DNA from: Gracilaria domingensis
Taxonomy: Eukaryota > Rhodophyta > Florideophyceae > Gracilariales > Gracilariaceae
Assembly (NCBI GenBank): GCA_022539475.1
Contig: VCMS01000438.1
Coordinates: 1 to 31,298, forward strand
Length of the DNA: 31,298 nt
Direction: 5' to 3'
Shown: positions 11,634 to 31,298 of the stretch, piece by piece
How positions within the stretch are numbered: the first letter of the stretch is position 1
How the letters are laid out: the number at the start of each line of letters is the position of its first letter
Position numbers and translations under genes: made by a program
The notes under the pieces: model-generated
What the model saw: only the letters and a program-made list of their open reading frames with translations
Told to the model about the DNA's origin: nothing
Database searches by the model: none

Positions 11634-11719
11634 GAGAGGATGAGGAGCGAAGCGCCTCATCCTCTCCGTTCCTCATGTAGGGAACCATGCCCAGATGCAT
11701 GGTTCCCTACTTGAGGAAC
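11634..11719 (+). repeat. Two consecutive perfect or near-perfect hairpins
   Basis: The first hairpin has 12-bp arms GAGAGGATGAGG / CCTCATCCTCTC with a 9-nt loop (11634-11666). The second has arms of about 22 bp around a short loop (11668-11719), with GGGAACCATGC facing GCATGGTTCCC. Both are conserved at 25576-25661 in copy B. Confidence 0.85.
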
Positions 11720-12804: not shown

Positions 12805-15800
12805 ATGACGTCGATATTGACTGTCGATCGACCTCCTTCTCCCTTCGGACGACCTTCCCTTGCAGTCTTTGTCGTCGTTTCTCGTTCATTTCTTCTTCCC
12901 ATGGTCTACTACTGTACACATAAGAAGCGTGGGTGCCTCTTCGTTACTCGCCGAGGAGTCTTATCTCTTCAACAGCATGTCCACCATTGCCCGTTTCGTC
13001 TGAAAGCAGCGCTGGAAGACGACAATAGGCGGCCCATTTGGAGAAGCAAGCGTCTCAAGCTTTCCGCGCCCGCGGCCGCATCTTCCGAAACGGTCACTGC
13101 CCCTTGTCGCCTTCCCGAGCCTCCAGTGTCCGAGGACATCGTCGACCCCACTCCGTGCGCCCCTCCCATTCCGGACACTTCGCATTGTGTTTCTTCTTCC
13201 CCGGTTCCCGCGTCATTAGAGCGAGAACACGGAAGCAGTTCCCACCCAGTGCCTTCTGAGGAGGCCCTCGGTGATTTGCATATGGATTATCTCACGGTTT
13301 GTCTGGCTTCAGTAGCTTCCAACCTTGGTCATCGTGAGGCAGACGAGCTAATTGCGCTACTTCGGGACCCGCGATTCTCGCAAAAGCGATTCAAAGAGAC
13401 CATAACAAGTTCCAAGCGCTGTACAGAACTGAAGAACGCCATTTTCGAACGATACGCCTCAAAGGACGGTTTCAATCGAAGAACTGTCTCGCCAGAAGGA
13501 TGTAAGTTCAGCGCCACCCTCTACACGAGAGACCCCGTTCAGACACTTGTGAAACAGCTCCAGTTGGCTAACAACGAAAACACATTCTTCCACCCTATAC
13601 TTCAGACCCATTCCACGAAAATATCTCAGCCTATGTCCGGCTCTCTCGCAAGAGACGCCACCTCAAAACTTAAGGAAGTAGTGAGGGGCTCTTTGGATAG
13701 TAGAATAGCGTGGTACGTTCAAGAAATAAGTTAAAGGGAATCTTTCGTAGGTCATCTGCAGGTATGCACCGATAAGTCTTCAACAACTCTAAAGCAAACA
13801 TCGGTTACCGCCTATCCTCTTCACCTCATATTTCTCAACTTCTCCGACGAGCTACGCCGTAAGCGCATCCGTGATGACCTCACAGTAGTGGCATACTTCC
13901 CTACCACACTGATCGAGGTTTCCGCATCTGAAGCAGACGCAATGCCCTTCGTTTCTAGCAAGTCTCTACGCGAGTCCAGGATGCAAATCCTTCAAGAATC
14001 TCTTCTTCAAGTCCTGGAGCTCATTCTAAATATCACGCAGAAAGGTTTTCAGTTCATCGGCGAAGAAAAACTAAGTCGAGTGTGCCATCCTCTGCTTGCA
14101 AGTTATTGTGCCGATATTCCTGAGGCTAAGGACATTCTGTCCATTCTTCATGGGACCAAAACGGAAAGCCCGTGTCATAGATGCAAAGCCCCTCGCTCAT
14201 CTTTATGCAGTCCTATTCCCACCTCATTCAACGGACGTTCTCAAAAGCACACGAAAAGCATCCGAAAGACATACACAGCTATCTTGCAACATGGACAAAA
14301 AGACGAGGCGGAAAGACGTCCACGTCGTGCGAGGGAGAGGAGATCTCAAGCGGATACTCTGATGCGTTCAAATTCCATATCTCTCATTCCTTCGTTCCTC
14401 GAAACTTCCGTAAGCCTTGGAATGATCCCGGGATTGTCTCCATACAGTCTGTTCTCATTCGAACCATTAGACAACTTGCATCTCGGCATCTCGAAGCTGA
14501 TAAAAACGGCCACAATCGAAAGACTGCAGTCAGACACCCTGTGCACCACAATAGGAAGATCTGTATCGCGTTCATTTCGAACGATACGCACCCAACTCCT
14601 CAACCATGCAAACGCAATTCTAGCTGCCATAGAACGCGATTCTCCTGCCAAAGGTCTACATATCGATTTCTCCACGCAGGACAAAGGCAAATCTTTGAAT
14701 GGTATCCTCACGAAAGACGGTCTCCGTGGAATACTGGAGGCCAAAAACTACAAAGCACTTGACATGGTCTTCCCCTTCATAGGAGCATTCTTTGACATAT
14801 GCTGTGGAGAACAAGACGTTGCCCCAATCACAACTGTTTTCTCTCAGTACTCGGACTTGCTTTCGACCTTATTCAGATACAGTCGTGACCCGTATTGGAC
14901 TGAAAGCTCTCTCCTGTGTCTTAGTTCGGAGATTGAAGCCTTCAAGCGTTCCGCAACAAAGACTCTGGCGGATTTTCATCCCTCCAGACTGGGAACTCTG
15001 AAGTTTCATCTTTTCGATCATTTCGTGGACGATATTCGCCGTCTGGGAAGTATCAAGTACTACGACGCAGGCATATACGAACATGCACACCTGCTATTTA
15101 AGAGACACTACAAAAAGATGTCCAGAAGAACAGCAACGGCTGTGGAGGAGACCATTCGCTCCATTGAGCACGGACACGTTAGAAAGCAATGGAATGGCAA
15201 TACTCCTTACCAGCGTAATCCAGGTTTACCAGGAACTTCCACACAGCTTCCTCGATTTGCAATCAGAGGGCGTTCTTTCACTTTACGAGCTCTTAAACAT
15301 TGTGTTTCAAGTATGTCCAGTTCAAAAACATGGACTGCTCTTAGAGAGATGTTCTCAAGTACGGACACAAGGTCGATTCTTCACCAAATTGGTGAACATG
15401 CCCTTCCTCCTTTCCTCAGTCTCGTGAAAGAAACACTGGATGAGCACTCTATTACATACTTCCCAGAAAAGACAAGGATAACTCTGGTGAATTCGGCCCT
15501 CCTGAAAGGCGGTTTCGTTCCGACTCTTGAACACTTCGATTCGTCTTCTGAGGCACTTAAGCTGGGACGACCCAAATACCCCATCATCCAACGATTCTTC
15601 GCTTCTCCAGCATTTGGTCCCAGTAGAAAGCCAAAGTTTTCCACTGTATTGGTAAGCGGAGAAGATTCAGAGACTTGGGTTGCCCAGGTAGTCGCTCTGA
15701 TTCGAATATCTCTCCTTGATTCTGCACTTACCGCACCAGAAGTGGCATTCGTCCGGTATTTCGAGGTTTTACCCCCGCAACAAACATCGACCACATATTG

Positions 15801-16079
15801 AAATGCATATCTTTACAGTGGGCTACAAACGATGAAAAGAACCACACTCTTCCGTTCCCTCGTCATTCCAAAGCGGAGACTATCGTAGAGTTAACTCCTT
15901 GGTACGGGATGGTTCCGGCTTCTGCGCTACAGGGAACTGTCCATGTTGTTCGATCAAACTACCCTGCCCGACCTTTTTGTCCTCCACTTCAATGGTTTCA
16001 ACACCGATTCTACATCAATCGATTCTATCATGATTCAGATGGAGGACCAACTGATCACGTTGATCTTGTACAGCCTTAA
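12805..16079 (+). CDS. Plavaka-type transposase, apparently intact
   Basis: Cut-and-paste transposase of the CMC superfamily. With introns 13717-13761 and 15766-15818 removed, exons 12805-13716, 13762-15765 and 15819-16079 give one open frame of about 1058 aa. Features in order: N-terminal Cys/His zinc-finger-like motif (C37, C44, H58, C62); a LYTRDP segment; VCTDKSSTT with the first catalytic Asp (D308); YPLHLIFLNFSDELRRKR; CHPLL...ADIPEAK and CHRC; EPLDNLHLG (D541); FHLFDHFVDDIRRLG followed by YEHAHLLFKRHYKK (E744); and a C-terminal GTVHVV ... FYINRFYHD segment. This order matches Plavaka transposases as I know them. The ATG at 12805 is the first in frame; an alternative Met is at 12901. 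TATA-like AATATAT lies about 20 bp upstream. The TAA overlaps the convergent neighbour's stop. Confidence 0.8.
13717..13761 (+). other. Candidate 45-nt intron 1 of Plavaka transposase
   Basis: GT at 13717 and TCTGCAG ending at 13761, phase 0, with an in-frame TAA inside. Removal joins RIAWY to VCTDKS, restoring the catalytic-Asp segment. The same 45 nt is conserved at 28063-28107 in copy B. Confidence 0.65.
15766..15818 (+). other. Candidate 53-nt intron 2 of Plavaka transposase
   Basis: Starts GTTTTACC and ends ATATCTTTACAG, phase 0. Removal joins VRYFE to WATNDEK and brings the conserved C-terminal GTVHVV and YINRFYHD segment into frame. Confidence 0.65.
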
Positions 16080-18454
16080 ACATTAAGGGCTCCATCCTCT
16101 ACATGTTCACCTTGTGGTGCCTTTTCTTGTGGTCCTGTGCTACTTCCGAAATCGTTCATGTCCATTTCCTTGAACTCCATATCCCCTTCCTCGCATTCAC
16201 CAACGAAACAATCGCTAATAGAACCCAATCTTCCGCTCACACTGTCAATAAAAAATTGTTCTTTCACAGTGAGGTAAAGTCTTTGGTTCGACGGCATTCG
16301 ATATCTAAATGTAGCCTCTCTCATGTCATTACCAAGAACCTTAGTCCAATCTTCCGCTGTCGTTCCAAAATTATGAAACTCCCTGGAATTGGTCCTCAAG
16401 ACACGTTGCCTAACATCCCCCAGAACATTCTTTAAACACAGAGGTAGCAGTTCGGCAAACTTCTTTGTAAACAGTTTCTGTCTCTGGCCACCCCTTGACA
16501 CATCCGTACTTAGAAGGCTCACAACCGTCAGCACCAAAGCGTCCAAACGTGCGAGCAACAGTATTGTGCCATCTAAAAAGGTGCCCGTATCCTTGTCTTC
16601 CACATCACACCCAATAAACTCCTTCAGTACTTGTACCCCGACACGGTTTCGGAAGAACAAGTCTTGATCTTCCGTCGGCATATCCTCGACATTGTCCGCA
16701 TTGGAGTACTTTAGACGAACAAATGGGGCTTTTCTCCACCATGAAGTGTTCGGTACACCATTTTCGTCAAGACGCAGTATGTTCTCCTGCGCTTCCTTCA
16801 ACTGCATTGTGAGTTCGTCAGCATTCTCTTCTACCAGCTTTGTTCTTCTCAAAATCAGATCGTACCCCAGGAGCAGAAATAGTTTATCCCTCGTATTTCT
16901 CTTCCGAACGCCCACGAAGTCACTCATGGTCTGCCGCATTCTCTGCCTAAGGCACATATCTGCACAAAGTTCCAGTATACACCTGTCGGTAAGAGATGCT
17001 TTTCTAATACCTTCCCAGCTCAACTCCTTCAACTCGCTTTCAACCATTTTCTTCAGCAAAGCATCTGGCCCCCCCTCTACCGACGGTGTGAACATGCGAA
17101 AACTGCCCAAGAGCTCCACGGGGTTTTTAGGAACCATGTATGAACCACCTTCTTCCGGCTCAATAAGCCCTTCCCCACTCTCAGTTGCGTCTTCCACCTT
17201 CTCGGCACGGTTACCCCAATTTCGGGTGAGCGACTCACCTTCGAGCCATAGCTCACTTGTTTTTCTCTTTGCCCACGTCAGCATGTTGTGATACACTGCT
17301 CGAGCAACCCCTCGAAACTCGTCGCACACCTCAATTTTATGCTTCTTTCGACCTGTCTGCCCAGGTTCACCAGCACGTGTATTCCTATCTCCCTCCTGTT
17401 TCAGTGCCCCCCTTAGCCCTTCAATAACTAGATCCTTCTCTTCAAGCCTCTTTTTCAAAGCCGTACTCTGCTCTTGGGCGACCTTCACTAGAATTCCCCG
17501 AACCATCAAGTCCTCTTGTAGCGTCTTAACCTTTTCTTTCAAGCAATTCAGTTCATTTAAAAGATCATGTCTGTTCATAGAGGTTGAATTTACACCAGTG
17601 TGGATATCTTCCGGTATTTCCCTAGCCTCTTCGGCGACAGGCCCCGGTAATGCCGCAGGATTCGCTGTTATTTCGTTATCGGAACTATCCTCATGTGCCA
17701 TGCCCTTAGACACGAGAGGCTGCAGGCGTTCTTTGTCCACCCTTGGCACGGCTCCGAGCTCCAACTCTCGTGTCTGTTCTCCTCCATGGCATCGTATATC
17801 AGATGAATTGGGCCTCGTACGATCTGCAACGGCCTCCGTTCTGGAAAGAGGGAAAGGTCGAGGAGTAACTCGTCTATCAGTTGTCTCTCGATTTCTTATT
17901 GTCTTTCTCCCTTGTCCGGACCCATTGCGAGGCATAATACGATTCATAGCGGCCCCAGTTCTAGAAGACAGGGAGGGACGTGACGATCTTAATATACTAG
18001 GGCTCTCACGACTTCTCGTCATTGTCTCTTGTTGTCCAGATCCACTGGGCGGCGTAACCCGCGCCCCAGTAGCTCCGGTCTTCGATATCGGCCGGGGACA
18101 TGAAGGTTTTGGTGTCATACGAACCTCTTCAGTTCCAGTTGTCATGCCCTCCTGTCCTGACCCGCTGGGCCGAGTTACCTCATCTTCTTGAGGAGCAGAG
18201 ACAGATGCACGATTTGCATTACCGGCAGTTGACGGCACGACATCGTTCGCTGATCCACGAATTCTTGACGCAATCCCGGAAGACGCTCCGCTGCGAGATG
18301 GGTGAGAGAGTACTGCAGAAGGACGCCCAGTGACTCTCTCCTTCGTCGAGGACGACTTCCGTTTAGGATGATTCGTATCATCCGATGCTCTTCTCTTCTT
18401 CTGTCCACTCTTGTTCCGCTGCGTACTATTTCGCTTTCTCGGCGTTATACCCAT
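16076..18454 (-). CDS. 792-aa repeat and coiled-coil protein, convergent with transposase
   Basis: The frame is open from 18664, but I take the ATG at 18454 (MGITPRKRN) as start because the upstream codons cross a poly-C/poly-Pro tract. The protein begins basic and disordered (KKRRASDD, KRKSSS). It then has three tandem 40-residue repeats (about residues 93-212; DNA 17819-18178, 120-bp units), each carrying an S/N-GSGQ motif. A coiled coil follows (about 293-355, ELNCLKEKVKTLQEDL). The rest is a mostly helical C-terminal globular region with no family I recognise. The stop codon shares the TTAA at 16076-16079 with the transposase stop, so the two genes are packed tail to tail. It lies downstream of the methyltransferase-SET gene on the same strand. 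A structural or DNA-bridging partner of that system or of the transposase is possible, but this is inference. Confidence 0.7.
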   Translation of the reverse strand: MGITPRKRNSTQRNKSGQKKRRASDDTNHPKRKSSSTKERVTGRPSAVLSHPSRSGASSGIASRIRGSANDVVPSTAGNANRASVSAPQEDEVTRPSGSGQEGMTTGTEEVRMTPKPSCPRPISKTGATGARVTPPSGSGQQETMTRSRESPSILRSSRPSLSSRTGAAMNRIMPRNGSGQGRKTIRNRETTDRRVTPRPFPLSRTEAVADRTRPNSSDIRCHGGEQTRELELGAVPRVDKERLQPLVSKGMAHEDSSDNEITANPAALPGPVAEEAREIPEDIHTGVNSTSMNRHDLLNELNCLKEKVKTLQEDLMVRGILVKVAQEQSTALKKRLEEKDLVIEGLRGALKQEGDRNTRAGEPGQTGRKKHKIEVCDEFRGVARAVYHNMLTWAKRKTSELWLEGESLTRNWGNRAEKVEDATESGEGLIEPEEGGSYMVPKNPVELLGSFRMFTPSVEGGPDALLKKMVESELKELSWEGIRKASLTDRCILELCADMCLRQRMRQTMSDFVGVRKRNTRDKLFLLLGYDLILRRTKLVEENADELTMQLKEAQENILRLDENGVPNTSWWRKAPFVRLKYSNADNVEDMPTEDQDLFFRNRVGVQVLKEFIGCDVEDKDTGTFLDGTILLLARLDALVLTVVSLLSTDVSRGGQRQKLFTKKFAELLPLCLKNVLGDVRQRVLRTNSREFHNFGTTAEDWTKVLGNDMREATFRYRMPSNQRLYLTVKEQFFIDSVSGRLGSISDCFVGECEEGDMEFKEMDMNDFGSSTGPQEKAPQGEHVEDGALNV
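17819..18178 (-). repeat. Three 120-bp in-frame coding repeats
   Basis: These encode three 40-residue units marked by S/N-GSGQ. The units have drifted strongly apart, but the spacing is exact, so this is an old internal duplication kept in frame. Confidence 0.75.
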
Positions 18455-18491
18455 GCTGTGGAGATAAACAGGGTAATGAAACGAAATTGTT

Positions 18492-18520
18492 GGGGAGGGG
18501 GGGAGGGGGTGGGGGGGGGG
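18492..18520 (+). other. G-tract, potential G-quadruplex
   Basis: Runs of 4, 7, 5 and 10 G separated by single bases lie in the 250-bp gap between the methyltransferase-SET stop and the 792-aa protein's start. The pattern meets the usual four-G-run quadruplex definition on the plus strand. It would be a C-tract in the minus-strand leader. Confidence 0.7.
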
Positions 18521-18703
18521 TGCATGGTTCAGATATTCCGGGAGACTCCGCAGTTCCTGCTTTTTAGGAATTTGAGGTGCCCAATGGGTCGCAAATATCG
18601 CCGTTACAGATGAAGAGCTCCAGTGTACATGTACAACAACGCGTATTGCAAGCAGCTGCAACATTCACAAGCATATTTACTTTCTATTCGGTACTGAACT
18701 CAT

Positions 18704-21700
18704 CTACTGCTCCAAAGTCAGAGCCCAGTCCCAGGCGTACTGCTCTCCGTAGTTGAAATACAACTCTTCGCCGCTCTCAATATCTCTTACTGCTCTACAA
18801 CGAAGTAGAGCATAGTTAGAAAGGTCGGACTTAAACTGTATCACGGACTTCGCTTCCAACATCTGCACATTGGCACTTCGAGTCTTGTTTGACCGGGGCT
18901 CCGATAAATTGGAATCCCCGGGATGATATCCGGCGTCGTTAATGTAGCCCCCGATACAAGAAGGCGCCGGGACAATGTACACTTCGCTCTCCTTTCTATC
19001 CTGAGCCAGTCCTGGTCTGTTCCTCAGGTGCAGAAAGTCCGTACCAGTCACAGTGACCATCATAGAAAACAACTTGTACCGCACTGGAGTTGCTCCGAGA
19101 CAGCCACTTCCATACGTTAAGTGTCTTTCCTTCCGGTTCTTCAGATCCGTGTATACCAAAGTTCCATAAAAATGACAGATAGTTTCCCCAGCCCATATCT
19201 TATGTTCCGTGAACACCCCCATACCAGCACGGGGATGTCGAATCTTAGAAGATGCTACATGTAAGCGATAGCGATTGGCTTCAACAGTCAACAGCATATG
19301 CATATCCATTAGATTCAGAGCTCCTCGGTACTTCTCCTCCCAAAGATCTACAGTATGCTGTTCACACTTGTCGACAAAGTCCCAGTCCTTCCAGTATCTT
19401 CCTAGGAACTGAGCAATATGTGCAGGCATCACTTGGTACCGGGGGTAACCAAATGGAGCCTCCCATTCAAGCCGACCTCGGTCCCGATGTGGAACCCGTT
19501 CATAAGTCGTTGAAGCCGCATCAACCACCTCCTGTTCAACCAGAATGTCATTCTTCCCCCCGCGAATAACTTCGGCCATAAGAGTCGTTATATGGTGCTT
19601 CGCATGGCTGAAACATGGCCTATTATTCTCGCACCCCAAGACCTTCTTATGCTTTGTCAGCGATAGGCACGCCATACCCGTAGAAAACGTTCCCGCGAAC
19701 ATGTCCATGACAAGATCACCCGGTTTTGTGAAGCGACATATCAACTCTTTCATCAACTCCCTTGCCTTCTGCTCCGGTCTTATGTACTGCGCACTTGGTA
19801 CTGAACTGCCTGGCTCATTTACCTTCCATGTCAACCACTCCCCCGCTCTCGGTTTTGGCACCCGGTCAATTACATTCCTGTTAGCCGGGAAAGTAGAAAG
19901 AATGAAATTGTTCTCCTCAAATGGAGTAAGACTGGCTTCCTTGGATGGTCGCAATCCACGCTTTACCCCATGAACGGCGTACTCCGTTACGGGATGTATC
20001 CCAAACTTCCGTGGATTCCTTCCAACATTACTTCGATCCCGGATGAACACCAGTGGATTCCCATCCACTTTAAACGAAGGCATGAGTTCTGGTTTACCTT
20101 CGCTTCCAGCTTCATCTTTCGTACTCGCCGTTTCCGAAAGTTTCCTGTGCCAAACATGAAACTGTGCCATGGCACAGAATATAATGAAGTGCCCACCTGA
20201 CCGAAGCGCGGAACTTATTAAGTCAGCCATACGGATGATGTCATCCTCACTGAAGACATCGTGAGCACTATTCCATTTGTTCCTCTTCCTGCGAGTGTTA
20301 AAAGGAGGGTCTGTTAGGACAAGCTGTGCCTCACCCATAAAATCTCCCTCTGATTCACAAACGTTTCGTGTGTGTGCCTCAGGTCCTTCATGTCACAGTT
20401 GTACGCTACAAAGTGTGATTTTCTCATCCCCTTCCACACCTTGTCCATATTCATTCGAAGGAGACTGGATATCCCCTTCATGGGCGGCTCAATACCCGTC
20501 TTTTGGATGTTGTAACCGGCAACCCGAGATTCATACTCCGCAAGATTCACCGGCTTCTCGAAGTCGTCGATATCGGAGCTCACGAGGTTCATATACTCTC
20601 GACGAGGTGGGGGTGGGGCAGACTTGGTCGAAGAAGGTTCGGCATTACCGGACGTCTTAGGGGTTTTCGTCAGTTCAATATCAGGTTTCGCGTGAATGCC
20701 GACATGGAACCCTGCCGCATGACGCATATCCTGTATCGGTTTCCATAGCAACTCCGAAAAGTTCTGAAATCGTGCAGGCAACTCACCGGAGTCAGAATCA
20801 GATACGGTATCCATCCGTAGCTCCGAAAACTCTATCCAGTTCCTCATCTGATCAGCCCGTAAGCTATAGAGGCTATCGTGGGTGCATATGGTTTCGAGGT
20901 CTGTCAAAAATTCCTTAGCCAGTATTCGGAGGTTTGTATCGCATTCATTACTCAAGGTCTCCACTGATCCACTAGTACTGCTCTGTAGCACATCCTGTGT
21001 GTTGAATCGAGTACTCTGGCTCGGCGGGGCATATCCAGACTCCAGTGTCTCTAGCGCTGTATACTTCAACGTCTGCATATTCATGTAAATGTATGGTTCC
21101 ACCATGTGCTGAACGTTCGTGTATCCAAGATGAGCCGCAAAACAACTCCATACCCATACGACCTCACTGATAACGAATCCCAGTCGATCACAGTTGTCTT
21201 TGGAGAACGACGTAAAAGTGGGTATGTACACAGGTGGTGCATGGTTCACTTTTCGTTTCTTTTTCGGTTGTTTCTTCTTCATCATTCGGATGTTGTCGTT
21301 CTCTCCCATTATGTGGCCGAGGTATGATAAGTATATAACGACCTCAAATGGGTTCACAGCTGTTGGTGGGATGAACACTGTCGTCTTCAGAACCTGCTTT
21401 CTCCTGGTCATGAAATAACCAACCAGGCATCGCACCGGTAGGTATATACCCATATCCATAGAGAGAAGGAAAAAATCGCGGAGTCTCTGGTCCTCATCCC
21501 CGTCCTTCTTGTCAGGAAGCTTCGTTACAAGATATCGTTGTTACACAGGTTTGTTATTCACAACACTCTTTCGCAGCTGTTGCAGTGTCAAGTTCTGCAG
21601 GTTCTTGGAGTTAGTGGCCTCCTCAAACATCTTCCTTGCCTCCGGAATATCCTTATAGTTCTCGGCGCAGAACTCTATTAGCCCTCTAAACCCCTCGTTC

Positions 21701-21840
21701 CGTGGCCGATCAGGGCCTCCATCGCTGTTTGCCAAAGCATCGCGAAGAACCAAGAAAAGTCTGACATATGCATGGAACGCCGGAGGCGGAGCACTCATGT
21801 CGATAGGATGTATCTCCTCTCCATCATCGGTGGAATCCAT
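18704..21840 (-). CDS. N6A/N4C DNA methyltransferase fused to SET domain
   Basis: Predicted nuclear protein of about 1009 aa if two mini-introns (21520-21564 and 20378-20439) are removed. Without them there is one in-frame TAA and one frame change. It has an unclassified N-terminus, a PKKKRKV nuclear localisation signal and a proline-rich linker. A beta-class (permuted) amino-methyltransferase follows: GDF, LVLTDPPF (catalytic DPPF, 20300-20311), RSGGHFIIF, a target-recognition stretch, then RPEQKARELM, GDLVMDMFAGTFSTG (SAM site) and LGCEN. The last ~180 residues form a SET domain: GMGVFTEHKIWAGETI, GGYINDAGY in place of the usual NHS region, and GEELYFNYGEQY. DPPF is compatible with N6-adenine or N4-cytosine methylation. 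The SET part suggests lysine methylation, but its altered core motif leaves activity open. The gene is divergent from the ParB-like gene. Confidence 0.8.
20378..20439 (-). other. Candidate 62-nt intron in methyltransferase-SET gene
   Basis: On the minus strand GTGTGG (from 20439) to ACCTGAG (20378), phase 0. Splicing brings ESEGDFMGEAQLVLTDPPF into frame with the upstream part. A frameshift near 20345 is the alternative. Confidence 0.5.
21520..21564 (-). other. Candidate 45-nt intron in methyltransferase-SET gene
   Basis: On the minus strand GTTGTG (from 21564) to ACGAAG (21520), phase 0, containing the in-frame TAA at 21541-21543. The frame is open and protein-like on both sides (KLPDKKDGDEDQRLRDFF follows). 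A nonsense mutation or a separate 99-aa gene at 21541-21840 is the alternative. Confidence 0.45.
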
Positions 21841-21855
21841 CGCTTCAGCGCAAAC

Positions 21856-22720
21856 AACGGAGGCGAGCCTTTAAATGGCGACTTACGCTGGGCACCCCCG
21901 CTTTCGGCAGCTCCTCCCAGCGCACTGCCAGTCTCGTCCGTGTCCGTGTCCCCTCGGTGCGATAGCGTCGCGTGTCGGCCACGTCGCGATTCGGAGCTAT
22001 TGCAAAGGTCGCGTATTGTGCTAAAAGTCGCAGATCAAGTGGGTGTGAAGCGCTAGTTTTCTCTAGTTTGATATATGTGCATGGCGTGTGCAGCGAAATC
22101 ACTGCCGGAAGTGCCGGGAGGAGTGTTTTGGGAGGTCTCCGGAGGGTGCCAGAATGTGGCCAGAACGTGCTCGCGGGCGGGGGTGGGGTCGGTCGTGTTA
22201 CGGTAGGTACCCTAACACGACCGGACCCCCCCCGCCCGCGGGCACGTTTTGGGGAATTTTTTGAAAAATGTGCGATTTTATGCCCGCCGGCGGGGGTGTC
22301 CGGTCGTGTTAGGGTACCTACTCTAACACGACCCACCCACCCCCCGCCCGCGGGCACGTTCTGGCCACATTCCGGCGCCTTCCCGGGACCTCCCAAAACA
22401 CGCCGCCCCGCAGTGATTTCGCTACACCCGGCCGCCGGTACGTTGGCGCCGCTGTCCACGTGTATTGGCGGTAGTAGGCTGTACATGGAAGTAAATGAGT
22501 GTTCTCTTGACTACTATGCAAAGCATTTGAAGAGCATGATTAGAGAGCGCTACCATTGCTCGCGTGAGTCATCATTGCGCGAACTCCACGACTCTAAAGC
22601 GTACAATCAGCGTCCGAGCGGCCACGGACAGGACACGGACGAGACTGGCAGTGCGCTGGGAGGAGCTGCCGAAAGCGGGGGTGCCCAGCGTAAGTCGCCA
22701 TTTAAAGGCTCGCTTCCGTT
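21856..22720. promoter_or_regulatory. Symmetric divergent promoter: 90-bp inverted repeats
   Basis: Arms 21856-21945 and 22631-22720 are inverted copies with a single mismatch. Each arm, read outward, contains GTAAGT and then ATTTAAAGGCTCGC before the start codon of the adjacent gene (21840 on the minus strand, 22783 on the plus strand). TTTAAA may serve as a TATA-like box, though it is only about 30 bp from the left ATG. GTAAGT could instead be a leader splice donor. Identical arms predict matched expression of the methyltransferase-SET and ParB-like genes. The DNA between the arms is unrelated left to right except for the central foldback. Confidence 0.75.
22093..22422. repeat. 330-bp foldback (palindromic) element
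   Basis: The sequence starts GCGAAATCACTGC and ends GCAGTGATTTCGC. The two arms of roughly 145 bp match with moderate divergence around a ~40-bp AT-rich centre (GGGGAATTTTTTGAAAAATG). Each arm contains its own imperfect ~32-bp palindrome built on GTCGTGTTAGGGTACC-like words. It could be a MITE or foldback transposon inserted in the promoter, or a structural regulatory element. No convincing target-site duplication is visible. Long open frames crossing it on both strands are by-products of its composition. Confidence 0.85.
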
Positions 22721-22782
22721 CTTGTATCGTCCAGAGCGAGCGTATTGTTGATATACACCTTTCACTGCAATAGCTTTTCAAC

Positions 22783-25254
22783 ATGAATCCAACTCGTGTT
22801 CGAAAGCGTACGCAAAGCGTGACTCCTCGCACTCGGCGGAGCACTCGATCATTGCAAGGTGGAATGCGGGTTTCTCTGCAGATGGATGTTGAGAATGAAG
22901 GAAAGGTGATAGTCGGGGAAGCGTTGTTGCATGGAATTGGAAGTGTTCTATGCCGCGAGTTGCACGGGAAGCAATTGGACCCCGGTCTTGTGGTGGTTCA
23001 TAATATTCTCATCAGTCGAAGCGGTCAGACATTCTACCCTTACCAGGCGGAGGGTCTGGATCTTCCACAATACATCCAGGATCTCCGGACGGCCGCTCCT
23101 TGGGATGAGAAAATGATGGAACCGGTGGCAGCCAGCATTCCGGCGTCCAAGCGAGGAACGGTGAGTGCTATGAGTGAGGTGATGATGCCGACAAGCCGCA
23201 TGGAGCCAATTCGAAGTTCATCAACACCGAGAGGTAACGCATCAGTAGCACCTTCGCGGGCAGGTCCGTCGTCTGTTACAAAGCGGTTTATGGAGACGAG
23301 ATCATCCCCAGCTGCGAAGCGGACAGTTCAAACAAAGTCTACCTCCGCTACGAAGCTCACTGCGTCGAAAAGGGCATCTCCAGCGATGAATCAGACCGTC
23401 TGCACAAGGGGAACTTCTGCGTCGAAACAGACGGTTCAGCACGGGACGGCTGTGCAAGAAGAGGAAGATGAGATCATAAAAGGTCCCCGTCCAGACGCGG
23501 ATGCGCAATCCGCACAAGGAGCTGGTCCATCTGTACCCCAAACTGCACCAGAAACTGCGGAGCAGCAGGACGATGACGTTGTGCTTCTGTCCGCAAGAAT
23601 GGCAAGTTCAAGTGTTTCTGGCGAGCGGTCTGGAACACAAGGGACACCTACTCGGAGCAAGACGTACAGACGAATTCGTCAGAAGGTACCAAAGGTGAAC
23701 CTCAATCACTACCAGATGGTTGTTGTTACTGTTAACATCACTCTGGTGGACACTCCGCCCAATTTACTTCGTGGAGTAAGTAAACGCCACGTTGAAGCCC
23801 TTGTGAACAGTATAGAGGAGCGGGAGATATTGCAGTCGATGGGTTCTCCAGTGGTGGCCTTACAAGATGCTACTACGGGAGAGAGGGATACTGACAAGGG
23901 ACGCCTAACGAAGAAGTGCTTCATTGTAGATGGTTTGCATCGTCTGAAAGCTATACAATATTTGGCAGGGACTGGTGCACCGAAGTGGAAGCGATTAGCC
24001 AAGTTTTGGCGTTGCAATCTGGTGATACGAAGAGATGGGAGACCCATTGGGATGAAGGAATTGTTATGTGTTGCTTCGTACCTCAATGAGTCGACGAGTA
24101 CCATGCGAAGGATGATGTTTGCAGACAAGATACACTCTATAGTTAGTGTGGTCGCCATTCTAATTGAAGATGTTGAGGGGGTGACGCCGGCAGACGTGGA
24201 TCCTGCAGAAGTGACAGAAGTGTTGAAGGAGAGCCAACTGATTGGGACTGTGCAAGAGCGTCAGTACCTGAGATATGCCAATGTCGCCCTGCAACTCATG
24301 TCTCGTGAGGGAATGCTGGCCCATTTCGAGGATATATGTGAGACTGTGAGTGACGTAGGTCTCACACATCTGTCCCATACTCCGCTATATGTTTTGGATG
24401 CCGAGGAGTTTTCCTTCATTCTTGATTGTCTTCAGATGTTTCTATTGAAGGGCAAGTCGACGAAGACAAAGCAATGGAAAAGCTTTGAGGAGGTTCGAGG
24501 TTTCTTTTATGATAGAGCAGTGTCTCTGTTCCACGCGGCTCGAGCAGTGAGGAATGAACTGAACGAGGAAGAGTCGATGGAAGTGTTCCTCAAACGCGAA
24601 GTCAGTCTTTCTGCTCCATCGAATGAAGATGACGTTGAAGACCCAGACAACAACGCAGCTGTGTATCAGTTCCTTTTGGGACAAGTTGTGAACTTCAACA
24701 CATTGCCTCGTGTTCGGAGCAGGACGAACTCAATTAGAACTGCCATGACTTCCGTTCAGAATCGATTGCGGACGATGCTCAAGGTAGTTCCACCCCCCGC
24801 ACCAGTGAAGCAGTCCGTGACGAAGAGGAGGACTCCCGCTGCTGCTGCTGCAACATCTGCCAGTGAAGAAGGGGAGCCGCGAAGAAATGCACGAGAACGG
24901 GCGCAGGGGAGTTATAGGGAAATTGAGCACGGCCAAAATCGAGGTGCCATAGAAGTTCTGGATAGCTCTGAAGAAGAACAGCGTGCCCCGCCGAGGAAGA
25001 AACGGAGAAAGACTTTCACAAAACAGATGAGATCTACTCTGAACAGCATGACACCGGATGACCTGATGTCTCAACTACGTCTGTCTCTTGCAGATGCTAG
25101 TTTTTGGCGAGGGTCGTCCAGAAAGTGGCAAGGGTCATCCAGTAAATTTTTTGAAAAAATATCGAGATCAATTATTTCAAAATTTAAAGATAATTGCTTG
25201 GGTCGCCCAGAATCGCTGTGCAGTAAATACTGCTGGGTTTTCCACTCGTGCTAG
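22783..25254 (+). CDS. ParB/sulfiredoxin-fold (ParB-N-like) nuclear protein, C-terminus altered by repeat
   Basis: Open frame of 823 codons from the ATG at 22783. Parts in order: a basic start (RVRKRTQS...RTRRSTR); a small folded region (about 30-105); a Ser/Thr/Ala-rich disordered linker with repeated KRTVQT-like words (about 120-300); a ParB-N-like domain (about 311-396) ending in the hallmark VDGLHRLKAIQYL; a helical region (about 400-620); and an acidic patch followed by PPRKKRRK (about 736-743), a likely nuclear localisation signal. ParB-N domains bind nucleotide or DNA, and some are nucleases; in bacteria and phages they often accompany DNA methylases. From 25077 (residue ~766 on) the frame runs into the repeat also found at 11135, so the last ~58 residues are not native and the original end is lost. 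Shares inverted promoter arms with the methyltransferase-SET gene. Confidence 0.75.
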   Translation: MNPTRVRKRTQSVTPRTRRSTRSLQGGMRVSLQMDVENEGKVIVGEALLHGIGSVLCRELHGKQLDPGLVVVHNILISRSGQTFYPYQAEGLDLPQYIQDLRTAAPWDEKMMEPVAASIPASKRGTVSAMSEVMMPTSRMEPIRSSSTPRGNASVAPSRAGPSSVTKRFMETRSSPAAKRTVQTKSTSATKLTASKRASPAMNQTVCTRGTSASKQTVQHGTAVQEEEDEIIKGPRPDADAQSAQGAGPSVPQTAPETAEQQDDDVVLLSARMASSSVSGERSGTQGTPTRSKTYRRIRQKVPKVNLNHYQMVVVTVNITLVDTPPNLLRGVSKRHVEALVNSIEEREILQSMGSPVVALQDATTGERDTDKGRLTKKCFIVDGLHRLKAIQYLAGTGAPKWKRLAKFWRCNLVIRRDGRPIGMKELLCVASYLNESTSTMRRMMFADKIHSIVSVVAILIEDVEGVTPADVDPAEVTEVLKESQLIGTVQERQYLRYANVALQLMSREGMLAHFEDICETVSDVGLTHLSHTPLYVLDAEEFSFILDCLQMFLLKGKSTKTKQWKSFEEVRGFFYDRAVSLFHAARAVRNELNEEESMEVFLKREVSLSAPSNEDDVEDPDNNAAVYQFLLGQVVNFNTLPRVRSRTNSIRTAMTSVQNRLRTMLKVVPPPAPVKQSVTKRRTPAAAAATSASEEGEPRRNARERAQGSYREIEHGQNRGAIEVLDSSEEEQRAPPRKKRRKTFTKQMRSTLNSMTPDDLMSQLRLSLADASFWRGSSRKWQGSSSKFFEKISRSIISKFKDNCLGRPESLCSKYCWVFHSC

Positions 25255-25575
25255 TTCTTTGGTCGAGGGCTACCTGAACGGTATTTCGCGAGGTCTAGGT
25301 TCAGTTTCCATTAAGGTGCACATTACACGATACCTTGTTCTGAATGATACCCTGCAACGCATGGAATACTGTTGCTAGTACAGATGATGTTCATTATGAA
25401 ATCATACCGTTTTATTCGTATCTATTCTTCTATCGACCGCTTTTGCTAACCACTACTTCGCTATATTACATGTACCATTTCCACATGATGAAGCGGGTGT
25501 AGGCGCAATCTGCGGCAGATGTCGCGGACTGCACCTCCACCAAAGTGCGTTATCGGTAGAACAAATACGCACTCC

Positions 25576-25661
25576 GAGAGGATGAGGAGCGAAGCGCCTC
25601 ATCCTCTCTGTTCCTCATATAGGGAACCATGCCCAGATGCATGGTTCCCTACTTGAGGAAC
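25576..25661 (+). repeat. Two hairpins (copy B counterparts)
   Basis: Counterparts of 11634-11719: 12-bp arms at 25576-25587 / 25597-25608, then a ~22-bp-arm hairpin at 25610-25661. Both stems are retained despite point differences between the copies. Confidence 0.85.
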
Positions 25662-26430
25662 CTGCATCTGCAACTCGTGAGCTACGTCCGCATCAAAAGT
25701 CATTTACCTGTATACGCAAGCAGAAAGTATCCATAAGTTAGTCAATGCTCCGTTAGGTACATTTGAAATGCGATGGAACGTATCATTGATAAAGCAAAAC
25801 AGAAACGTTGCGCGAGAAAATTCGAGGGACCTAGTAACTCGCAAAAGGGAGAAGAAGCAGGAAAGAGATCGGTTAGATTACCAGCCCACCATCATCGTAA
25901 AGCGCGAAAGGTGTCGAAGCGAGAACTCACAAGCAAAGACACCAAGAATGCCCATGCAGCAAACATACCGCAAGATGCGATAAACGAAAGAGCAGCCTAT
26001 GTCCCAACCAAGCACCAGAATCGCCTATCCCGAACAGTCAGACATCGATCTTGAGAGACGAAATGAAATTGGTCGTTTACCTGTATACGCAAGCAGAAAG
26101 TATCCATAAGTTAGTCAATGATGCGTTGGATACATTTGAAATGCGATGGAACGTACCATTGATAAAACAAAACAGAAACGTTGCGCTAGAAAAGTCGAGG
26201 GACCTAGTAACTCGCAAAAGGGAGAAGAAGCAGGAAAGGGATCGGTTAGATTACCAGCCCACCATCATCGTAAAGCGCGAAAGGTGTCGAAGCGAGAACT
26301 CACAAGCAAGGACACCAAGAATGCTCATGCAGCAAACATACCGCAAGATGCGAAAAACGAGAGAGCAGCCTATGTCCCAACCAAGTACCAGAATCGTCTA
26401 TCCCGAACACTCAGAGATCCAAGATCGCCA
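25661..26430 (+). repeat. Tandem duplication in copy B, ~373-bp unit
   Basis: Unit 1 runs from 25661. The shared TTTACCTGTATACGCAAGC word is at 25703 and again at 26076, so the offset is 373 bp. The second unit is complete here, unlike in copy A. Open frames of 162 and 106 codons pass through unit 2 in different phases. The Lys/Arg/Gln-rich product is not recognisable and I do not call it a gene. Confidence 0.75.
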
Positions 26431-26446
26431 AGAAACCAACTTGGTT

Positions 26447-26534
26447 TGTTGCGCAATAGGCTCTAGCTTCTCGCGTCTTGCGCTACTCTTGAAAAGTAGC
26501 ACAAGAGGCGAAGCTAGAGCCTATGGCGCAACGA
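26447..26534 (+). repeat. ~41-bp-arm hairpin
   Basis: Arms about 26447-26488 and 26495-26534 pair with few mismatches (GGCTCTAGCTTC facing GAAGCTAGAGCC). Absent from copy A, which lacks 26221-26657. Confidence 0.85.
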
Positions 26535-26566
26535 AATGAACCATTTTTCGCGTACTTACAGTTGTC

Positions 26567-26668
26567 GCTTTGGGTTACCGGGTTCCCGTTTTCACCCTTC
26601 AACTCGTTCTATATCTTGAAGAAATAGAAGAAGTTGAGAGTGAAAACGAGAATTCGGTAACCCAAAGC
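26567..26668 (+). repeat. ~46-bp-arm hairpin
   Basis: Arms about 26567-26612 and 26624-26668 (GCTTTGGGTTACCG facing CGGTAACCCAAAGC). Most arm differences are transitions; several would still pair as G-U in RNA. Copy A keeps only the last few bases of the right arm. Confidence 0.8.
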
Positions 26669-26806
26669 TTATTTCCTGCCGTTTGCATGTCGCAGAGCGC
26701 GAAGAAACGTGGTGAGGATTGGTTAGTTTAGAGCAAAGATACGTGGAAGGATATGGAAGAACTTACGAATAGACTGCACGGAATACATCCGTGAGATACG
26801 GATGAC

Positions 26807-26879
26807 TCCGTCCTACTTTTTTCCGCCCTCTACTTTAAGGAGCCTCCATAAAGTAGAGGGAGGAAAAAGAAGGACGGAG
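26807..26879 (+). repeat. ~31-bp-arm hairpin
   Basis: Arms CTCCGTCCTACTTTTTTCC... and its imperfect complement enclose AGGAGCCTCCA. It lies where copy A has a different foldback (about 12370-12490). Confidence 0.8.
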
Positions 26880-27150
26880 CAGAGTATAACGCGAGGAGGT
26901 GGATGGCACGGGTCACGACGGCAACGGAAGGTCGGACGTCGGAGGCGCGGCGGCGGCGGAGGGAAGGGATTTACTTTTTCTGTGCGAGATTGGACAGGTG
27001 TACAGCGTACAACGTTGGAAAACCACAGGTTTATAACCAGTGGTAGATAATACGAGAAGTACACCCTTGTGTTGAGGTCGACGTGTACCTACGTTCCTTT
27101 TTGAACGAAAGCACGTGATTTAAACTCAAAACATATTCTCCGTTCTCAGC

Positions 27151-28985
27151 ATGACGTCTATATTGACTGTCGCTCGACCTCCTTCTCCCTTCGGACGACC
27201 TTCCCTTGCAGTCTTTGTCGTCGTTTCTCGTTCATTTCTTCTTCCCATGGTCTACTACTGTACACATAAGAAGCGTGGGTGCCTCTTCGTTACTCGCCGA
27301 GGAGTCTTATCTCTTCAACAGCATGTCCACCATTGCCCGTTTCGTCTGAAAGCAGCGCTGGAAGACGACAATAGGCGGCCCATTTGGAGAAGCAAGCGTC
27401 TCAAGCTTTCCGCGCCCGCGGCCGCATCTTCCGAAACGGTCACTGCCCCTTGTCGCCTTCCCGAGCCTCCAGTGTCCGAGGACATTTTTGACCCCACTCC
27501 GTGCGCCCCTCCCATTCCGGACACTTTGCATTGTGTTTCTTCTTCCCCGGTTCCCGCGTCATTAGAGCGAGAACACGGAAGCAGTTCCCACCCAGTGCCT
27601 TCTGAGGAGGCCCTCGGTGATTTGCATATGGATTATCTCACGGTTTGTCTGGCTTCAGTAGCTTCCAACCTTGGTCATCGTGAGGCAGAAGAGCTAATTG
27701 GGCTACTTCGGGACCCGCGATTCTCGCAAAAGCGATTCAAAGAGACCATAACAAGTTCCAAGCGCTGTACAGAACTGAAGAACGCCATTTTCGAACGATA
27801 CGCCTCAAAGGACGGTTTCAATCGAAGAACTGTCTCGCCAGAAGGATGTAAGTTCAGCGCCACCCTCTACACGAGAGACCCCGTTCAGACACTTGTGAAA
27901 CAGCTCCAGTTGGCTAACAACGAAAACACATTCTTCCACCCTATACTTCAGACCCATTCCACGAAAATATCTCAGCCTATGTCCGGCTCTCTCGCAAGAG
28001 ACGCCACCTCAAAACTTAAGGAAGTAGTGAGGGGCTCTTTGGATAGTAGAATAGCGTGGTACGTTCAAGAAATAAGTTAAAGGGAATCTTTCGTAGGTCA
28101 TCTGCAGGTATGCACCGATAAGTCTTCAACAACTCTAAAGAAAACATCGGTTACTGCTTATCCTCTTCACCTCATCTTTCTCAACTTCTCCGACGAGCTA
28201 CGCCGTAAGCGCATCCGTGATGACCTCACAGTAGTGGCATACTTTCCTACAACACTAGTACAGTTTTTTGCATCTGAAGCAGACGCAATCCCATTCCTCT
28301 CTAGCAAGTCTCTACGCGATTCCAGGATGCACATCCTTCAAGAATCTCTTCGTCAAATCTTGTGACAAATTCTAAATCTAATGCAGAAACGTTTTCATTT
28401 CATCGCCGAGAACGCACTATATCGAGTGTGCCATCCTCTGCAAGTTTTTGTGCGGATATTCTGAGGCTGAGGACATTCTGTCTACTCTTCATGGGACCAA
28501 AACGCAAAGCCCTTGTCATAGATGCAAAGCCCCTCCCTCATCTTTAGACAGTAATGTTCTTACGTCATTCACTAGACCCTCTCAAAACCACACTAAAAGA
28601 GTCAGAAAGACATACTCAGTTATTCTCGAATATGCAAAGAAAGGCGAGGGAGAAAGAAGTTTACGTCGTGCAAGGGAGAGAAGATCTAAGTAGGATACTC
28701 TCATGCGTTCTAATTCCATATATCTCATTCTGTCGTCCATCAAAACCTCCTTGACCGTAAGATTCATCAAGGGGTTATTTCCATGCAGTCTGTTCGGAAC
28801 AAGGAGAGCTCTCTTTGAAAAGTTACACAACTTGCATCTCGGCATATTGAAACCGATTAATACTCCAGAAATCGAGAGACTGCAGTCAGAGACCCTAAGC
28901 ACTGCAATAGAATCATGCGCGTCACGTTCATTTCGAACGATACGTACTCAAATCCGGAACTTTACAAACGCAAATCTACGTCTGT
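27151..28985 (+). pseudogene. Plavaka-type transposase copy B, broken after exon 1
   Basis: Exon 1 (27151-28062) is open. Its encoded part differs from copy A at only a handful of residues, for example A for D at position 7 and E for D in the READELI segment. The 45-nt candidate intron (28063-28107) is conserved. Exon 2 then runs from VCTDKS to an in-frame TGA at 28363-28365. Beyond that, frameshifts and stops accumulate. Recognisable pieces continue (CHRCKAP near 28520, a diverged LHNLHLGILK near 28830) until about 28985, where homology to copy A (about 14630) ends. The second catalytic Asp region is damaged, and the region carrying the catalytic Glu is missing. Not functional as a transposase. 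The exon-1 product alone could still be made as a zinc-finger protein, which is speculation. Confidence 0.8.
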
Positions 28986-29416
28986 GTTCTGCAAAGTGGA
29001 ATATAGTCTGTTCGCTTTGGAAACTAAGCTAGTTTTGGGGCTATTTGGGGCGCGCGAGGGGGTAGCAGAGGCTGGCACTCAAAAAATTAAGAAATTTTGG
29101 AATATTAAATTCCATTTCGCGCAGTTTAGTGCTTGGGTCCCCTAGTTTTTGTAGAGGTTCTACTTCGCCGCACCACCCCATTCACTCTTTTCCGCGACCC
29201 TCTCTCAAAACTGCACTCGTGCTAGTTTGCGTTTCCATTTTCTCCCATGTTGCAATGCCAATCGCAACTCATCCCACCTCAATCATCCCATCACTTCTTC
29301 CCAGTCCACACCACCCCCGCTATTTACCCATTTCTCGCCCATCACGCGTTCATTTTGTAGAAGTCAGGTGCACAACTCTCCCCCTTCTCGTATACCCGCC
29401 TCGCCCCAAAACGGCT
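28986..29416. repeat. Diverged short AT-rich element (29028-29227) and flank
   Basis: 29028-29227 resembles 11153-11314. It opens with GCTAGTTTTGG, has an AT-rich core, then GCTTGGGTC about 102 bp further on (99 bp in copy A), and closes with CACTCGTGCTAGTT. It lies just after the end of transposase homology. No gene is seen in the remaining ~190 bp. Confidence 0.4.
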
Positions 29417-30346
29417 TCAAATCCCTCCCATCCTTCTCTCCTCCTGTCCCCTCAGAATCCCCTTCGCAGTCCGCGCTACCTCCGCCGCACTCCTAAACCC
29501 AGTCACCACCGGAACTCCCACTCCCTCCCGCGGCACCTCCTCCACCACCTTCTTCATCTCCTTACGCCTCTTCTTCAGACGGCTCTTCCCATCCCCAACC
29601 CCACCACCCTTTGTCTTCGGTGTCACAGGAGACCCCTTCTGCACCGCCACCCTTCCCACACTTCCCTTCTCCGTCTTTCCCTCCACACCTCCTTTCACCC
29701 TCTCCTCTTCCACCAATCTTTGCCTCTTGCACAGCTCCTTCACCTCCTTCTCCAGCACGTCCAACCTCTCGTTCAGAACCCTATTCTCCTCCCGCAAGTC
29801 TCCAACCTCCCTTCCCGCACACTCCACTATCCCATACACATGATTTCTCATCTCCACTCCCAATACCGACAATGAATTCCGCAGGCTCGAAATCGCCTCA
29901 ACCGAAACACCACTACCACCCCCACTCAGCACCACACCGCCCATTTCCGTTACAATCTCCACAATTCCATCGTCCAGTTGCTCCTTCATCACCAACCCCA
30001 ACATCCCCACCCTCGCCTTCATCTCCCCCACAAACCGCATCTCCCTGTCACCCTCTCCGCCCCCACTCTCTATCTGGTCTCCAACCTCTAACTGACTCAG
30101 ATGCACCGCACCCCTTCTCTCCATTGCGACCCCCTCCACCTCCAATTCTACCCCCTTCTCCACCTCATCACCATCCCCTCTCCTCGCCTCACACTTCTTT
30201 CCTTCCTCAGCCACTTCCTTCTTCTGCGACATCCGACCAGCCGCCGTAATCACGTCCTCTTCCCGCTTTGGTGACGGCGTCTGCGGTACCTCCTTCCCCT
30301 CCAACAGCACCCACAGCTCCTCATCCTTCACGTATCCGTTCGACAT
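29417..30346 (-). CDS. 309-aa coiled-coil protein, unknown function
   Basis: Open minus-strand frame. I take the ATG at 30346 (MSNGYVKDEELW) as start; the frame extends upstream to 30442 but without another ATG. The N-terminal half is rich in Glu, Gly and Val. A coiled coil is predicted by eye at about residues 178-216 (DLREENRVLNERLDVLEKEVKEL). A basic cluster KSRLKKRRKEMKK (about 254-266) could be a nuclear localisation signal. The C-terminus ends in a mixed segment (GFRSAAEVARTAKGIL). The coding strand is strongly purine-rich, which also leaves the opposite strand open, so composition alone inflates ORF length here. I do not recognise a family. It could be a host gene or a retroelement ORF1-like protein. 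Confidence 0.5.
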   Translation of the reverse strand: MSNGYVKDEELWVLLEGKEVPQTPSPKREEDVITAAGRMSQKKEVAEEGKKCEARRGDGDEVEKGVELEVEGVAMERRGAVHLSQLEVGDQIESGGGEGDREMRFVGEMKARVGMLGLVMKEQLDDGIVEIVTEMGGVVLSGGGSGVSVEAISSLRNSLSVLGVEMRNHVYGIVECAGREVGDLREENRVLNERLDVLEKEVKELCKRQRLVEEERVKGGVEGKTEKGSVGRVAVQKGSPVTPKTKGGGVGDGKSRLKKRRKEMKKVVEEVPREGVGVPVVTGFRSAAEVARTAKGILRGQEERRMGGI

Positions 30347-30979
30347 CTTCAGAAGAACAAGTAGTAGTTGGATCGAAGTTTCCGCTGCGATACAGTGCAA
30401 TCGAGCTAAACTGTGCTGTCCACCCCCACTGTCCAACCACACGGGCTATATCCAGCACCATGATTGTCCCTGTTTCCCTCATCCCATTTCCCGCCAAAAC
30501 ATCCACTGTACACCTCCGCACCTTCCACTATTTAAGCGCCATCTCTCTGTCCCCTCTTCACATAGTCCCCACCCACCTCGCCTCGACCGGCGATATTTTT
30601 CTCTTCCACCATAACCCCACTCGATGGTTATAGCAAAACAGGAAGATATTGCCAGTGGAGGCAAGCTAGGGACTAGTGATTGTACTTAGAGTTGCTCACC
30701 CTCTGTCTCGACTGGGGGCATGTTCTTCTTCCGTCACATCCTTTGTGGGTTGTGACAAAAAAAGAATATGTCACCACTCGACACCGGATGGGTAACAATG
30801 ATAGCACGTAGAGTAGTTCATCCTCCCTCTCAGCGTCCACTGGGGATATATTTATGTTCTCTCACATCCTTTCCCGGTTGTCATACAAGAGAAATACATC
30901 TCCAATGGAGACGGAGAATATAGTCGTGATAACACGTAAAGGTAACAATGTAATAAACAATAAATTTATGCTACTATCT
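30347..30979. repeat. Diverged ~125-bp tandem repeats between two minus-strand genes
   Basis: Three related units can be aligned on the word GATtGtACtTAGAG / GATAGCACGTAGAG / GATAACACGTAAAG at 30678, 30800 and 30928 (spacings 122 and 128 bp). TCACATCCTTT and a following GGTTGTsA word are shared by the first two. The repeats fill most of the space between the ribulose-phosphate epimerase stop and the coiled-coil gene. 30347-30620 should contain that gene's promoter; I see no clear motif. Confidence 0.6.
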
Positions 30980-31298
30980 CTAACCAACCTTTCGAAAACC
31001 AGCTATGACATGAGCTGGGTTACTCGAGCAAAAAATGGCAGATCCTGCAACTGAAATGTTTGCAACGGCCTTCACTACTCCTTTCACAGTACTCAGTCCA
31101 ATACCTCCATCCACCTGTATCCCTATTCTTGGGTACAACTCCCTTGCATGTCGCACCTTATCAAGAACACCCTCCATAAACGCCTGTCCTCCAAACCCTG
31201 GCTCCACCGTCATCAACAATAACATGTCTACAACTCCTTCCTTCATAAGTGCTTCTACGACCTTTATAGACGTATTCGGGCGCAATCCAACTCCATTC
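30980..31298 (-). CDS. rpe: Ribulose-phosphate 3-epimerase, C-terminal part
   Basis: Interconverts ribulose 5-phosphate and xylulose 5-phosphate in the pentose phosphate and Calvin cycles. The window holds the last ~105 residues; the gene continues past 31298. The visible frame begins NGVGLRPNTSI, matching the LKP-x-T segment. It continues with MTVEPGFGGQAF (the conserved M-V-x-P-G-F-x-G-Q loop), IQVDGGIGLSTV (with the catalytic second Asp, D-G-G) and VAGSAIF (phosphate-binding). The stop is at 30980-30982. No internal stop or frameshift is seen. I cannot tell from this end whether the protein is plastid-targeted or cytosolic. This is the only clear housekeeping gene in the window. Confidence 0.93.
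   Translation of the reverse strand, partial: NGVGLRPNTSIKVVEALMKEGVVDMLLLMTVEPGFGGQAFMEGVLDKVRHARELYPRIGIQVDGGIGLSTVKGVVKAVANISVAGSAIFCSSNPAHVIAGFRKVG

Follow-up and report, generated by a model that had tools for sequence, protein, structure and literature searches.

The genes encoding a DNA methyltransferase (MTase)-SET fusion protein and its ParB-like partner are cargo of a Plavaka-class DNA transposon of about 21–22 kb in a red alga. The window, that is the whole stretch of 31 298 nucleotides analysed here, corresponds to contig C438 in an assembly of 77.9 Mb and 680 contigs. The analysis demonstrated the architecture of the element, its mobility hallmarks and copy number, its conservation in three families and low pN/pS in the MTase and SET parts. 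We read the cassette as the epigenetic-enzyme module of a cut-and-paste transposon that would mark its own DNA and histones, an interpretation to which we assign a probability of roughly 55%.

Organisation of the window

The window contains one long but interrupted copy of the transposon and parts of two others nested within it (Table 1). The junction of copy B at 25078 was located by comparison with an uninterrupted ParB-like gene (L039) that reads straight across it, and copy C matched the right parts of the copies on contigs C25, C81 and C296. No Pfam match was obtained for ORF3.

Table 1. Features of the transposon copies in the window
Feature	Position	Strand	Remarks
Left terminus, copy A (CGTCTGTCTCTTGCAGATGCTAG)	11136–11158	+	Homology start in other copies; 563 genome matches
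Plavaka transposase gene, copy A	12805–15801	+	Two ORFs, 12805–13734 and 13888–15801; PF18759 (1.9e-7) on the second
ORF3	16076–18664	−	862 aa, downstream of MTase-SET; 53 scored places
MTase-SET gene, frameshifted	18704–21800	−	ORFs 20314–21459 and 18704–20338; upper limit estimated from intact copies; PF01555, PF00856
Nested palindromic intergenic region	21853–22723		Between divergent MTase-SET and ParB-like genes; inverted repeats
ParB-like gene, copy A	22783–25077	+	Interrupted by copy B; about 1300 aa where intact
Copy B of the same transposon	25078–28978	+	Nested in copy A ParB-like gene; left terminus and 5′ part of transposase only
Copy C, inverted right end only	28979–31298	−	Nested in copy B; right terminus at 28979; ORF 29417–30442 (−); runs off contig

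Several further features were noted. A near-perfect hairpin of 52 nt (GTTCCTCA...TGAGGAAC) is located some 530 bases in from the left end at both 11668–11719 and 25610–25661, and subterminal direct repeats follow it. Another transposase-like gene (8907–11436, plus strand; PF06869, 5.5e-6, below cut-off) is apparently interrupted by copy A at 11136, and a degenerate, GC-rich (about 66%) repeat array with spacings of 25 and 43 bases occupies 4406–5536. In the right part of copy C, positions 30980–31285 (minus strand) encode a fragment of ribulose-phosphate 3-epimerase (PF00834, 1.5e-22); the same stretch is present in the copies on C296 and C2, absent from those on C25 and C81, and is probably a gene piece captured by some copies.

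Transposon class, termini and target site duplications

The Plavaka transposase domain (PF18759), identified in the second transposase ORF of the window, matched the longer frame of copy L091 with an E-value of 1.1e-18 and was scored at 123 places in the genome, which fall into several families; open frames of 1100 aa were present at other places. A CHRC motif was visible by eye in the transposase and is a candidate for the C(2)C that, along with H(3–4)H, is expected in Plavaka between the catalytic residues D2 and E. The termini are inverted (CGTCTGT...ACAGACG) and abundant: allowing up to two mismatches, the right terminus pattern had 572 matches in the genome compared with the 563 of the left, and the reversed control patterns had none. 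Homology started at 11136 in four of the six copies fetched there (L047, L050, L051, with its first bases altered, and L052), and likewise at the second window site, 25078; in copies L048 and L049 it did not extend to the left terminus at 11136.

Identical 2-bp flanks (AA, CA, TG, CG, CC, AC, GT and TC) were found at eight of the ten end pairs examined first. These were all seven pairs spaced 10.2–10.8 kb apart and the pair on C6 (21.35 kb), none of the eight containing a listed MTase; the flanks did not match at the two long pairs of 22.8–22.9 kb, on C5 (with a partial MTase match inside) and C29 (none listed inside). Six more pairs, picked because they hold an MTase (16.9–22.8 kb; C34, C38, C23, C50, C41 and C81), had no matching 2-bp target site duplication (TSD), so that TSDs were present at 8 of 16 end pairs overall. 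No fitting right end was found within the stretches fetched from C60, C69 and C26, nor were the left ends of the copies on C25, C296 and C51 and the right end of that on C51. The outcome divided by size, with TSDs at 7/7 pairs of the 10 kb class and no matching TSD at 8/9 pairs 17–23 kb apart, C6 being the exception. Recombination between copies, or assembly joins within a repeat exceeding the read length, are possible reasons for the missing TSDs of long copies. The TSD-flanked short forms and the MTase-bearing form have termini and body in common, with TSDs seen at the short forms and C6 only. The suggestion in an initial annotation, made from the DNA sequence of the window, that the cassette belongs to a mobile element is thus borne out by a Plavaka transposase, inverted termini and 2-bp TSDs on part of the end pairs.

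The one short element that was read, L091 (C2:400600–409900; 10.5 kb), is a deletion derivative that has kept the transposase, with one stop between its two frames, the palindromic region and an N-terminal remnant of the ParB-like gene, and has lost ORF3 and the MTase-SET gene. Short forms of this kind may make up the bulk of the 563–572 ends. The gene order of the long form, a composite of the window and copies L039–L041, L043 and L053, is Plavaka transposase (+), ORF3 (−), MTase-SET (−) and the ParB-like gene with its C-terminal domain (+), followed in the right half, 3′ of the ParB-like gene, by two HAD-like genes (+ and −), a Rossmann-like ORF (−) and a coiled-coil-like ORF (+). One HAD-like gene matched PF08282 (4.5e-13) and the other was slightly below cut-off (0.0004). 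The last two ORFs were named by eye, the Rossmann-like one having no Pfam match in L091 and a match to ApbA_C at 0.062 in family 3. The HAD-phosphatase-like genes at L041:523–1434 and L041:1538–2605 are paralogous, and one has its first catalytic Asp replaced (SSVDGT/SSVEGT). In the family 3 copy L094, the Rossmann-like ORF begins within about 200 bases after the ParB-like gene, with no HAD-like genes between.

The MTase-SET fusion protein

The ORF at 18704–20338 (−) matched both N6_N4_Mtase (PF01555, 8.9e-14) and SET (PF00856, 1.4e-7) above the Pfam cut-offs. The fusion described in the initial annotation therefore holds at the level of Pfam profiles, and it recurs: the alignment reached the end of SET in 70 of the 80 places scored out of 772 candidates, and a stop-free frame of 1055 aa was present among these 80 at at least nine places on nine contigs, six of which were fetched (L010, L011, L013, L015, L019 and L038). 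PF01555 as such was scored at 150 places genome-wide. Intact proteins consist of an N-terminal part with the motif PKKKRKV, then N6_N4_Mtase, then SET. The attribution of PKKKRKV to the methylase protein is correct for these intact copies with their single frame and incorrect for the window, where owing to a frameshift the motif falls in ORF 20314–21459 (−), in another frame.

The fragmented state of the window copy could point to contamination by bacterial DNA, an assembly error or unrelated ORFs fused by chance, and 17 of the 30 copies that were fetched are no more than 22 kb from the end of a contig, against about 38% at most expected for 680 contigs. This explanation has a negligible probability and was ruled out by the uninterrupted 1055-aa frames on nine contigs, the presence of the fusion in three divergent families 30–46% identical, which also contradicts the idea that the two domains occur only apart, the linkage to a eukaryotic-type transposase and its termini, and a plastid contig in the assembly (see below).

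In the MTase, the catalytic motif DPPF precedes FAGTF, which is the beta-class order of (D/S)PP(Y/F) before FxGxG with the second G replaced. The usual form of motif I is FxGxG and that of the SET motif is NHS. Motif I is off-consensus in reading FAGTF in family 1 and YSGTF in family 2; in SET, GMGVF (GxG) and the terminal Tyr motif YF(D/N)YG are present, and YINDA, with NDA for NHS, is found in families 1 and 3. The PDB sequences nearest to the MTase were the adenine methyltransferases DpnA (5.4e-8) and CcrM (2e-6). Together with DPPF this suggests that the target is most likely N6-adenine and the predicted mark 6mA; in the part of the source available, the bacterial motif DPPY is assigned to N6A and SPPY to N4C (PMC8885841). 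SET is a SET domain by membership, and catalytic activity is predicted for both domains; the missing second glycine of FAGTF and the NDA of SET speak against it.

Selection and conservation in divergent families

Pooled over 30 family 1 copies including that of the window, pN/pS was 0.34 for the MTase, 0.32 for the SET part and 0.55 for the N-terminal part, values biased downward as these copies were the best-scoring 30 of 80. Compared with randomly re-dealt substitutions, a control in which related copies are counted repeatedly, the observed/expected N/S was 0.26, 0.37 and 0.61, respectively. The substitution pattern shows what we interpret as purifying selection on MTase and SET among copies. 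A stop was present in 18/30 of the copies. DPPF was intact in all 30, FAGTFSTG was changed in three (L025, L037 and L038), and SET motifs were changed in L018, L021, L023, L031 and L034. Six extra loci excluded from this sample included one with DPPS and two in which the last SET motif contains a stop.

MTase, SET, ParB-like partner and palindromic intergenic DNA are common to three transposon families, of which family 2 is represented by L092, L095 and L002 and family 3 by L001 and L094. Over MTase and SET, identity to family 1 was about 45–46% for L001 and 30–33% for L092 and pieces of L002, SET being recognised in families 2 and 3 by alignment to family 1. In family 2 only the first part of SET was seen, since the frame of L092 extends beyond the MTase but stops within SET, and stops interrupt L002. 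The ParB-like gene with its C-terminal domain was found in the same three families (29–57% identity in tblastn pieces), with that of L094 in broken pieces. All three families retain DPPF or DPPY and FYGTL; YINDA and the final DYG are shared by families 1 and 3.

The off-consensus motif I and the NDA of SET would fit proteins that work without catalysis, as sequence-specific DNA-binding or silencing-control factors whose degenerate MTase and SET domains serve as scaffolds. We consider this unlikely in view of the low pN/pS and of the motifs retained across families.

Linkage and intergenic palindromes

A listed MTase was found divergent to the ParB-like gene within 6 kb at 23 of 55 scored places (of 1523 candidates), 20 of these 23 at 2.3–3.5 kb, and directly upstream of ORF3 at 34 of 53 scored places (of 1014 candidates); the lists of MTase, ParB-like and ORF3 places are the scored part of 772, 1523 and 1014 candidates, so that an unpaired place is no proof of absence. 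The Plavaka transposase was convergent to a listed PF01555 place at 2.5–9 kb in 31 of its 123 scored places, with three pairs in other orientations. Distances in 27 of the 31 were 5.32–5.86 kb, clustering near 5.3, 5.5 and 5.7–5.9 kb. The palindromes between the divergent genes of the window have arms 121 nt (88%) and 93 nt (98%) long, and at the corresponding position L092 (family 2) and L094 (family 3) have comparable palindromes with arms of 175 nt and 171 nt, respectively; none was present in the 400-base start of L095.

The ParB-like partner

The divergent neighbour had been described as ParB-N-like. The gene recurs as divergent partner, and its description is upheld by a structure model of the intact copy L039, although the Pfam profile is silent: the ORF at 22783–25254 (+) had no Pfam or PHROG match, and the intact L039 protein had a weak match to a PHROG ParB family (phrog_3264, 0.0018). 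The predicted structure of the L039 protein contains a ParB-N-like fold at a middling pLDDT of 61, and both this fold and the GxxRxxA box typical of ParB-N are present. A PDB profile search with the ParB region gave nothing useful (best E-value 1.1). From the model, the partner would belong, as a ParB-N-like protein, to the ParB/Srx superfamily.

Intact partners of about 1300 aa combine the ParB-like part with a C-terminal domain, absent from the window copy, that carries the pattern HxD...H...R and in which LHTDF, GSH, DVxHA and RYHMY are kept in all three families. By this pattern the domain may be a 2-oxoglutarate/Fe(II) dioxygenase. Membership of TET/JBP was considered and dropped, as Pfam gave nothing up to an E-value of 10, the PDB sequence profile gave one match at 0.7 and the structure model of the domain was unusable (pLDDT 33).

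Host and genomic DNA methylases

The eukaryotic source of the DNA, assumed in the initial annotation, is supported by contig C680 of the assembly, which carries a plastid-type rbcL of 488 aa (PF00016, 3.8e-126; best PDB sequences 8bdb, then 1bwv) followed by rbcS and cbbX, the latter two named by eye. The order rbcL-rbcS-cbbX is that of red-type plastids, and the host is therefore most likely a red alga. The element is large and abundant in this red seaweed genome, with several hundred termini.

No match to the C5 DNA methylase profile PF00145 was found in the whole assembly in a search that detected 10 of 14 controls. The transposon MTases may therefore be the main DNA methylases here, and a role in countering 5mC is less likely in this genome. 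A search of the assembly with the MT-A70 profile gave no match, its controls being equally silent. Gracilariopsis chorda is reported to be methylated in the part of the source available (PMC8566409).

Proposed function

In the mechanism that we favour, a phage- or bacterial-type beta-class amino-methyltransferase joined to SET, in a protein with a nuclear-signal-like motif, and a divergent partner with a ParB-N-like domain and a possible 2-oxoglutarate/Fe(II) dioxygenase would target copies of the element itself and might load at the palindromes between the two genes. By placing one mark on DNA and another on histones, they would keep the element transcribable or let it regulate itself, and the ParB-like protein would contribute targeting and possibly erasure. 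The writing of both DNA and chromatin marks, already suggested in the initial annotation, remains an inference. Eukaryotic 6mA has been linked to permissive chromatin in the available part of the source (PMC12695648), and this link, together with the predicted 6mA, favours self-marking by which the element would remain active or regulate itself.

The MTase might alternatively mark transposon DNA in order to control transposition or to shield excised DNA from nucleases, with SET in a non-histone or structural role. The MTase has phage relatives in 103 phage records (26–29% identity in the 15 listed), and the palindromes between the MTase and ParB-like genes fit such a role; in bacterial Tn10/IS10, transposition is timed by adenine methylation. 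We give this alternative a modest chance, since it leaves unexplained both the nuclear-signal-like motif and the pN/pS of SET, which is as low as that of the MTase. Self-marking of DNA and histones, our preferred reading, can also be extended to a complete self-targeted kit comprising a dual DNA-and-histone writer and a ParB-type clamp that would load at the palindrome and spread the fused dioxygenase as an eraser, the transposon supplying most of the DNA methylation of a genome whose host has no recognisable C5 methylase; in this full form the proposal is improbable.

Comparison with known systems

Single epigenetic enzymes are already known as pick-ups of transposons. Fungal Plavaka elements resemble the present one in transposase, 2-bp TSDs and a DNA-modification gene as cargo. 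They differ in that, in the part of the account available, the cargo is TET/JBP, ParB is unmentioned and no MTase-SET fusion is described; their termini are given as TGT..ACA (PlavakaA) or CATCA..TGATG (PlavakaB), compared with CGTCTGT..ACAGACG here. In the red algal element a TGT/ACA sits four bases inside the ends, which are not the published ones. Harbinger and MuDR elements of Phytophthora likewise carry a SET histone methyltransferase gene on a DNA transposon, although they belong to other superfamilies and no fusion to a DNA methylase is mentioned in the available part of the source (PMC12730594). DIRS elements with Dam-like adenine MTases and LINE, DIRS and Gypsy elements with DNMTs also encode DNA methyltransferases, and purifying selection was reported for the Gypsy DNMT; unlike the red algal element, they are retrotransposons and, as far as the available part of the source goes, have no SET domain (PMC5890265). 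The N4CMT of bdelloid rotifers is, as described in the accessible part of the source, an amino-MTase of bacterial origin joined to a chromatin domain of eukaryotes, and its host is without C5 methylases; in contrast, it is a captured gene marking transposons, with a chromodomain reader instead of a SET writer and SPPY instead of DPPF (PMC8885841).

Among phage families, phrog_67 (1.9e-23) corresponds to the beta-class MTase and the phrog_3264 mentioned above to the ParB-like domain; these are families of prokaryotic viruses, with no SET match among them. A scan of viral contigs by a few short peptide patterns gave no relative of the full protein or of the C-terminal domain; with the MTase-SET pair alignment it gave three loci that match the MTase part only (26–35% identity), and the same kind of scan of prokaryotic genome contigs gave none. 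No report of an MTase-SET fusion on a transposon was found in the accessible parts of the open-access literature. If our reading is true, a covalent DNA-methylase and SET protein that selection has maintained, along with its ParB-like partner, in several divergent families of transposons would directly link DNA marking to histone marking, both written by a mobile element. It also makes it possible to test whether transposons, and not the host, encode the enzymes behind DNA methylation in some lineages of eukaryotes. SET, TET/JBP, adenine and cytosine methylases have each been described on transposons individually, as far as the available parts of these sources go (PMC12730594, PMC5890265, PMC8885841); the fusion of MTase and SET was not among the cargo reported in the accessible literature.
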